Assembly: GCA_024398135.1 (NCBI GenBank)
Contig: CP073750.1
Span: 186,001 to 250,000 of the forward strand
DNA: 64,000 bases
Direction of reading: 5' to 3'
Source of the DNA: a bacterium SCSIO 12643
GTDB taxonomy: Bacteria > Bacteroidota > Bacteroidia > Flavobacteriales_G > Salibacteraceae
Numbering within the stretch: position 1 is the first letter of the stretch; the number at the start of each line of letters is the position of its first letter. Both the position numbers and the translations under genes were made by a program. Positions 8,930 through 10,351 of this stretch are shown one piece after another. A model generated the notes under the pieces. The model saw only the letters and a program-made list of their open reading frames with translations. It was not told where the DNA came from and searched no databases.

Positions 8930-9586
8930 TTACGCCAAAAACTGAACGGTTTTGGCTTTTCGCAACCAGGAAATCGCAAAGGCCTCGATAGCCACCACCT
9001 CAAATACAAATACATATGGGAAACCTACCTCTACGCCTTGTTTTTCCAGAATCATTAAAACGATCATGATAACAATACTTGCCCAAATAATAATTCCACA
9101 GGTCTTATAAAACATATTCAAACCCTGAGAGTTGTTGGACGATAACGTAAATTTAAAATAAGACATATACCCTAACAAAGAGATAAATATCCCAGCTGAA
9201 CCCAGATGGATATATTTCTTGGTCATATTGTCCACGTGACCAAATAAATACGGGCTATCCGTGAAATGAATAGGCCCCTCAGCATTCATGGAGGTAGTGG
9301 GTACCAAAACCACTACAACAGCAAAAAATGCGGCTATACTTGTGATCACATTATCACTAATTTTCTCCGAGGGTAATTTTTCGTACCCCTGATAACTAAA
9401 CAGCATGATCGCAAAGGCAAAGATGATGGCAATAAAAAATAAACTCGATCGGGTATAATAGTAATGACTAAATGAGCTCAATACCTTTTCTATGTCTGAA
9501 CCGAAATACAATAAAAATGGGAGCATCATTCCCAATAAGCCAATGTTTCTTCTCTGTTTATACAGTTCTTTTTTGTACGTATCCAT
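8930..9586 (-). CDS. Multi-pass membrane protein, DUF998-like
   Basis: The 218-residue product has six predicted membrane helices: about 14-30, 48-66, 83-100, 126-145, 161-180 and 186-208. Between helices 3 and 4 is a loop TTSMNAEGPIHFTDSP, and Gly-Ser-Ala-Gly-rich helix 4 begins IHLGSAGIF. The layout resembles small DUF998-type integral membrane proteins, but I see no catalytic residues. Its upstream region carries an 18-bp palindrome shared with the next gene upstream, so the two are probably controlled by one regulator. Confidence 0.65.
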   Translation of the reverse strand: MDTYKKELYKQRRNIGLLGMMLPFLLYFGSDIEKVLSSFSHYYYTRSSLFFIAIIFAFAIMLFSYQGYEKLPSEKISDNVITSIAAFFAVVVVLVPTTSMNAEGPIHFTDSPYLFGHVDNMTKKYIHLGSAGIFISLLGYMSYFKFTLSSNNSQGLNMFYKTCGIIIWASIVIMIVLMILEKQGVEVGFPYVFVFEVVAIEAFAISWLRKAKTVQFLA

Positions 9587-9646
9587 GATTGTTGATTTTA
9601 TAAGTTGAATTGATGCATCTAAATTCGGTGATCTGATTGGAACTTT

Positions 9647-9668
9647 ATATCACGGAATTCGGTGATAT
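9647..9668 (-). promoter_or_regulatory. Palindromic operator candidate, copy 1
   Basis: ATCACGGAATTCGGTGAT at 9649-9666 is an 18-bp palindrome with one mismatched pair, extended by AT/AT on both sides. A half-copy (AATTCGGTGAT) follows at 9622-9632. It lies 62 bases upstream of the membrane-protein start at 9586. The same core recurs at 10253-10270 ahead of the neighbouring gene with matching downstream spacing. I infer a binding site for a dimeric regulator that I cannot identify. Confidence 0.65.
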
Positions 9669-9773
9669 TATTCTAGATCAAATCATTGAATAAAATATGG
9701 TAAGCTGGTCCGTTTTTTTGAATCACAGTAATTCCAACCTACCATATTCAAATACGTCAAGTTCTATTTTTAA

Positions 9774-10196
9774 TTATCCAATAATTCTGTATTTCTTCGC
9801 AAAAACTGCAAAGTAGTTTACGTCCAGTTTAAAATTAGAATTCACTCGAATATCTTCTCTATACACTTCCAAATTATGTCTTCCCGGTTCTAAATAAATG
9901 GTTGTTGATGCTGATGAAAAAAATGTTACCGTACTACTTTCTCCTTCAAAACTCATATCAGCTGCTACGCGCTGCCCATTCAGCTTTACATACAACCGGA
10001 TTCCTGCATTAGCGGTAGGCCCAGAGTAGTTTGCACTTGCACAGGCATTAATAGTTAAAAGACTTGGCACCTTAATCTCAATATAGTCTTGCCATTTATT
10101 CTCAGAATAACCCTCAGGGGTTTTATTCATGGCAATGATTCTTACAGGTGAAATTCTTCCGTTTTCAAGTTCCGACTTTTTTAGATCTTCTTTCAT
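9774..10196 (-). CDS. Non-secreted beta-rich protein of unknown function
   Basis: The protein has 140 residues. No signal peptide or membrane helix is visible. The sequence alternates short strands rich in Ser, Thr and Val (SSTVTFFSSASTTIYLEPGRHNLEVYRE), like a C1q- or jelly-roll-type sandwich. I chose the ATG at 10194-10196 rather than the in-frame ATG at 10239-10241. It places the start 18 bases after the conserved TTTAGATCCATCA, close to the layout of the neighbouring membrane-protein gene, and the longer version would leave almost no room for a promoter. Function is unknown. Confidence 0.65.
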   Translation of the reverse strand: MKEDLKKSELENGRISPVRIIAMNKTPEGYSENKWQDYIEIKVPSLLTINACASANYSGPTANAGIRLYVKLNGQRVAADMSFEGESSTVTFFSSASTTIYLEPGRHNLEVYREDIRVNSNFKLDVNYFAVFAKKYRIIG

Positions 10197-10250
10197 GTTT
10201 TTGGTTTTAATTAATGATGGATCTAAATACGAGAGTTTCACTGTAATATA

Positions 10251-10272
10251 AAATCACGGAATTCGGTGATTT
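10251..10272 (-). promoter_or_regulatory. Palindromic operator candidate, copy 2
   Basis: The core at 10253-10270 is identical to that at 9649-9666 and is extended by AA/TT. On the minus strand, TTTAGATCCATCA begins 43 bases after the first base of the core. TTTAGATGCATCA begins at exactly the same distance in copy 1. This shared geometry argues for a real promoter-operator unit and not a chance repeat. It also sits in the gap ahead of the divergent helicase gene. Confidence 0.65.
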
Positions 10273-10343
10273 TTTCTTTAACCAAATAATAATTAAAAAT
10301 AAAAGCCATTTAAAGGCTCCAACTCTCATCTCATCAATCTAAC

Positions 10344-10351
10344 TACCTTTG
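10344..10351 (+). promoter_or_regulatory. Promoter core TACCTTTG of the helicase gene
   Basis: TACCTTTG matches the Bacteroidota -7 element TAnnTTTG exactly. It overlaps the most upstream TTG codon of the helicase frame, so that TTG cannot be the start. Transcription should begin near 10356-10358. Confidence 0.6.

Follow-up and report, generated by a model that had tools for sequence, protein, structure and literature searches.

The window analyzed here is a stretch of 64,000 nucleotides from the bacterium SCSIO 12643 (contig CP073750.1, positions 186,001 to 250,000), in which two minus-strand genes are each preceded by the same 18-bp palindrome. The genes and the features associated with them are as follows, with the operators and promoters being predicted:

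8930 to 9586, minus strand: first gene, a 218-aa multi-helix membrane protein, probably of a distant DUF998-like family
9611 to 9627, minus strand: CGAATTTAGATGCATCA, putative core promoter of the first gene, with +1 predicted at 9614
9622 to 9632, minus strand: extra half site, ATCACCGAATT, which directly repeats operator 1's left half and overlaps the -7 region of the first gene's promoter
9649 to 9666, minus strand: candidate operator 1, ATCACCGAATTCCGTGAT, 5' of the membrane-protein gene
9694 to 9748, minus strand: hairpin between the two genes, with arms at 9694-9708 and 9734-9748, followed by TTTTATT on the minus strand
9774 to 10196, minus strand: second gene, 140 aa, without a relative in the searches described below; TNF/C1q-like jelly roll in a single-sequence model of low confidence
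10215 to 10231, minus strand: putative core promoter of the second gene, CGTATTTAGATCCATCA, where TTTAG occupies the -7 box position and +1 is predicted at 10218
10253 to 10270, minus strand: candidate operator 2, ATCACCGAATTCCGTGAT, 5' of the second gene

The membrane protein itself has no match to the DUF998 Pfam family to E 0.01; six of the 20 members of its homologue alignment do match the family (best 8e-7), and a fold search with the protein gave no significant match. No palindromes were found near its homologues, suggesting that the window promoters are recent or species-specific. For the second gene, no close relative was present in 42 genomes of the order, and a pattern search of genome contigs returned 29 matches, none of which is a relative. 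Its single-sequence model (pLDDT 63) gave a best VIA Z of 10.8 (rmsd 2.1, 112 aligned) to 4-1BB ligand and a Z of 10.0 to the BC2L-C lectin domain. Based on this model, the protein possibly resembles TNF/C1q-like jelly rolls, bacterial TNF-like lectins included. It bears no relation to the 128-aa protein of the kinase operon presented below. The hairpin could be the terminator of the second gene, in which case each gene would have its own promoter.

The original prediction held that the palindrome occurs once ahead of each gene, that a half site accompanies the first copy, and that one regulator binds at a fixed distance from the promoter. Both copies are present and identical (9649-9666 and 10253-10270), and the half site was found at 9622-9632 as AATTCGGTGAT. 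The palindrome is imperfect, with eight of nine pairs matching; on the minus strand, positions 6 and 13 are both C in each copy. When up to three mismatches are allowed, the two operators are the only copies in the window, where shuffled sequences give 0.02. The genome-wide search proposed at the outset, permitting one or two mismatches, revealed no further copy in the 4.1-Mb genome, which marks the repeat as real and specific; the five matches with three mismatches are near chance level. Farther afield, ATCACSGAATTCSGTGAT at up to one mismatch is absent from all 41 order relatives, and an exact scan of 84,980 genomes returned 51 matches, mostly inside genes and near chance level. Searching with the exact 18-mer alone is too restrictive to reveal what the repeat belongs to. 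Of the notion that the 18-mer is a regulator site, the palindrome has stood while the exact 18-mer has not: the relevant match is TCACsG-N4-CsGTGA, and the operator can be seen as a 7-2-7 inverted repeat, in which two TCACsGw heptamers are separated by two bases.

A second element, TTTAGATsCATCA, was said to follow the palindrome at a fixed distance, 43 bases from first base to first base. This is true for both promoters (TTTAGATGCATCA, 9623 to 9611; TTTAGATCCATCA, 10227 to 10215), and the match is longer than first described, extending to CGwATTTAGATsCATCA. Such a pair of elements might also arise without a regulator if the identical 18-mers were the remains of a duplicated upstream segment. 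The copies are identical down to the asymmetric pair, and about half of the bases between the palindrome and TTTAGAT agree between them. Outside the two elements, however, similarity is low, and the element and its spacing recur at unrelated promoters in this genome and in other lineages; a bare duplication is therefore very improbable.

In Flavobacterium psychrophilum, the -7 box TAnnTTTG is located at -12 to -5 (PMC9723704), a position that would place the transcription start at offset 52 from the operator's first base and the palindrome centre near -43. The -7 boxes start 39-40 bases after the first base of the operator, and TTTG or TTWG ends at offset 46-47 in most of 12 aligned promoters. 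In the window promoters, TTTAG ends at offset 47, the same base as in the perfect -7 boxes elsewhere. The proposal that TTTAGAT is a promoter element requires some refinement, since it occupies the -7 position yet makes a poor -7 box (four and three of six matches in the two promoters), which would fit an activator-dependent promoter. The offset-52 base is A at both predicted starts, 9614 and 10218. The predicted 5' leader is 28 nt long for the first window gene and 22 nt for the second; the kinase operon would have one of 27 nt, and a gene encoding a 507-aa protein one of 31 nt. Across the promoters with a clear gene, predicted leaders range from 14 to 55 nt. The predicted +1 at 10218 is downstream of a GTG at 10241, in support of the earlier relocation of the second gene's start to 10196.

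Two other roles for these elements were considered. A common leader peptide encoded by TTTAGATsCATCA was rejected, as the in-frame extension of the first gene is without an ATG, GTG or TTG start. On the plus strand, TACCTTTG at 10344-10351 is a good -7 box for a DEAD-box helicase gene. Its start is 91 bases away from the first base of the operator and thus out of register, so that the helicase gene is probably not a target.

Further sites were sought in the genome with a relaxed pattern comprising TCACsGNNNNCsGTGA (any four central bases) and TTwG at the same distance. At up to one mismatch, TCACSGNNNNCSGTGA-N27-TTWG occurs at exactly five places, consisting of the two window sites, 2,822,884, 2,940,767 and 2,120,069, where a rough estimate of chance expectation is 0.65. 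Random scatter inside coding sequence had been named as the outcome that would speak against a regulatory site; all five places are intergenic. At two mismatches, the count is about that of a reversed control pattern and includes the opposite strand of the same sites. The palindrome is perfect (TCACGGTTTTCCGTGA) at 2,822,884 and 2,940,767 and near-perfect at 2,120,069. At both of these perfect palindromes, the distance from the first base of the 18-mer to the start of TAGTTTTG, itself a -7 box that fully matches TAnnTTTG, is exactly 40 bases. Among 395 genomes of the class, the exact palindrome followed by N{10,40} and TANNTTTG was found at three places, two of which are in this genome, both with a gap of 23; no other class genome has the gap-23 arrangement. 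The site at 2,822,884 precedes the gene for the 507-aa protein, which is exported. At 2,120,069 (L159:4570-4700), TTCATTTG at 40 has the correct spacing, and no gene clearly follows; the site might serve a small RNA or a short peptide.

The site at 2,940,767, TCACGGAAAACCGTGA, opens a minus-strand operon located 2.7 million bases from the window palindromes. Its three genes are:

L157:5819-6205, minus strand: 128-aa protein, first operon gene
L157:3943-5793, minus strand: histidine kinase, 616 aa, with TPR, HisKA_3 and HATPase_c; overlaps the regulator gene by 4 bases
L157:3323-3946 (about 2,937,825-2,938,445 in the genome), minus strand: NarL/FixJ regulator, 207 aa, with receiver and GerE domains, last operon gene

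It had been suggested to look for a LuxR-type gene with the same site ahead of it, and this operon supplies one: it starts with the operator, followed by a -7 box at the same distance (40), which supports the idea of one regulator acting at a fixed distance from the promoter. The kinase sequence predicts a signal peptide, TPRs and an additional membrane span. The regulator's domains, PF00072 (E 4e-29) and PF00196 (E 5e-16), are both over the cut-off, and its closest solved structures are NarL (1a04, E 3e-36), VraR, DesR and DevR. The operon combines a receiver with a GerE domain, an adjacent kinase, an inverted repeat at its own head and a fixed distance from site to promoter, the features that go with a NarL/FixJ regulon.

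Bacteroidota genomes can hold dozens of NarL-type regulators, and 23 GerE matches were found in this one. Among the GerE proteins found, the recognition helix of the operon's regulator, SVNTVETHRKN, is unique. It is nevertheless conceivable that a different regulator, such as another NarL paralogue or a TetR- or MarR-type protein, uses the window sites and that their likeness to the kinase-operon site is partly coincidental. The number of GerE matches leaves room for this reading, as does the C at position 6 of both window sites, where the other sites of this genome carry G. Against it, the window sites have the same arms and the same centre-to-promoter distance, a combination occurring at only these places genome-wide; the site is tied to a helix class in relatives; and the searches turned up no further regulator gene in this genome with a site of this kind. 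A different regulator is thus quite improbable. Given the C at position 6 and the weak -7 boxes, the regulator may bind the window sites less strongly than the autoregulatory site, or transcription from them may depend more on the regulator. It is possible in principle that other NarL paralogues act through the perfect palindromes.

The palindromes are in all probability operators of the NarL/FixJ regulator at about 2,937,825-2,938,445, which would activate its own operon and a small set of further targets, the two window genes among them. Upon stimulation of the kinase, the regulator would become phosphorylated and dimerise. The dimer would bind TCACsGw-N2-wCsGTGA, an inverted repeat whose centre lies about 43 bases 5' of the predicted +1 and which replaces a -33 element, and would recruit sigma-A polymerase to the -7 box 39-40 bases after the operator's first base. 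The predicted targets are its own operon (autoregulation), the gene for the 507-aa exported protein (2,822,884), possibly 2,120,069, and the two window genes. The sites, their spacing, the operon and the co-occurrence with a regulator subclass are observed; binding, phosphorylation and activation are inferred.

The position of the operator points to activation rather than repression. Were the same regulator a repressor, its dimers at about -52 to -35 would block polymerase until a signal releases them. The operator does overlap the -33 region, the extra half site of the first gene overlaps the -7 region, and the window -7 boxes deviate from consensus. However, a centre near -43 that replaces the -33 element is the usual position of class II activators, no -33 element is evident in the promoters, and weak -7 boxes suggest that an activator is needed. 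Repression is therefore unlikely.

The link between the NarL/FixJ regulator and its putative operator extends to relatives. From the same order, 37 neighbourhoods of similar regulators were sampled without using the site in choosing them, and a site was counted if it was intergenic, had at least nine of ten core bases and was followed by a -7 box (5/6) at 38-40. Four neighbourhoods have sites (L221, L222, L226 and L227), all among the five whose regulator bears the helix [NH]TVETHR[KR]N; the fifth, L242, is without a site, as are all 32 neighbourhoods with other helices. The hypergeometric value for this association, 8e-5, is somewhat flattering because the helix class was defined after the first loci had been seen. 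Simulated DNA contains three such sites per 5 Mb, as compared to four loci in 0.53 Mb of relatives. In L221, L222 and L226, the site heads a gene cluster ending in the kinase and regulator, and in L227 it is 3' of the regulator and 5' of a 208-aa gene. Three relatives of the same family have a caspase-like cluster:

L222:8989-12511: caspase-like cluster
L226:5258-10565: caspase-like cluster
L227:4833-9377: caspase-like cluster

Each is ordered as a caspase-like protease, a 130-137-aa protein, a TPR-HisKA_3 kinase and a NarL regulator. The 130-137-aa protein is poorly conserved and takes the place of the 128-aa protein of SCSIO 12643, whose operon has no caspase-like gene. The caspase-like protein has an invariant His-Gly (HG) and Cys-x-Ser-Gly-Gly (CxSGG) in all three clusters, and its profile matches GSU0716 (3bij, E 7e-15) and metacaspases (E 0.002). 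Pfam gave no caspase match for the relatives' protease, and a defence-system library gave only a weak one, for the protease of one relative. It is as if the effector part of the cluster were exchangeable. At L221:9394-10639, two small, unrelated proteins, 179 and 216 aa long, take the place of the protease ahead of the kinase/regulator pair. Separately, the promoter start region of L222 (12430-12511, TTTGATCCATTATTAATTAAAAC) nearly equals that of the second window gene (10190-10270, TTTAGATCCATCATTAATTAAAAC), the difference being one inserted base and one substitution; the downstream genes are not alike.

To our knowledge, few operators have been mapped for the NarL-type regulators of Bacteroidota, and none of the papers in the collection searched describes this operator site. 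NarL dimers recognize a palindrome of two TACYYMT heptamers with a two-base spacer (7-2-7). NarL of E. coli and VraR of S. aureus have a receiver plus a GerE domain like the regulator described here, and the 7-2-7 layout of NarL is matched by its candidate operator; the heptamer is different (TCACGGA), as is the use of a Bacteroidota -7 box in comparison with both systems. The regulator's best NCBIfam equivalog, MctR (NF052445), scores 190 bits, far below the cut-off of 300. FimS/FimR of Porphyromonas gingivalis is likewise a Bacteroidota system that pairs a LuxR/NarL-type regulator with a HisKA_3 kinase containing TPRs. The SCSIO 12643 kinase matches the NCBIfam FimS model (NF053520) over residues 103-579 (E 2e-15) at 56 bits, well below its cut-off of 600, and the operons differ in content, with a 128-aa protein here, a caspase-like protease in relatives and no fimbrial genes seen. 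The HG and CxSGG protein in the operons of the three relatives resembles bacterial caspase-like (C14) effectors but is coupled to a two-component system, whereas those of PMC7159879 belong to NTP-dependent systems.

A tentative reading, which we consider somewhat doubtful, is that a TPR kinase, a NarL regulator and a small companion protein form an undescribed Bacteroidota system that controls a caspase-like protease in relatives, and that in this species new operators have brought a DUF998-like membrane protein and a jelly-roll (lectin-like) protein under its control. As to its function, one might guess at a surface or stress response that includes a protease arm in relatives. The site, its spacing to the phylum's -7 box and the matching recognition helix can be read together from sequence, such that two genes of unknown role become candidate targets of a specific two-component system, one linked in relatives to caspase-like proteases.

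Among the intergenic matches of the 84,980-genome scan, similar sites occur in two distant lineages of Bacteroidota. A match to the palindrome in Parabacteroides (L057) was rejected as an operator because it is part of a long terminator-type hairpin. In three species of Myroides, a perfect palindrome, ATCACGGAATTCCGTGAT, is at the promoter of a gene adjoining a NarL-type regulator/kinase pair, and the helix of the regulator is identical to SVNTVETHRKN. One such promoter (L220:7510-7584) has TACCTTGT at offset 40 rather than TAnnTTTG, and TACCTTGT fits an alternative -7 box, TAnnTTGY, reported in F. psychrophilum (PMC9723704). In Cytophagales (L046 and L073), the same perfect palindrome is directly 5' of a 7TMR-DISM/HisKA_3 kinase and a NarL-type regulator with the helix ENTVETHRKN. 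At L218:7556-7573 (Cytophagales), the perfect palindrome is flanked by -7 boxes at 38 on one strand and 40 on the other, suggesting divergent activation.
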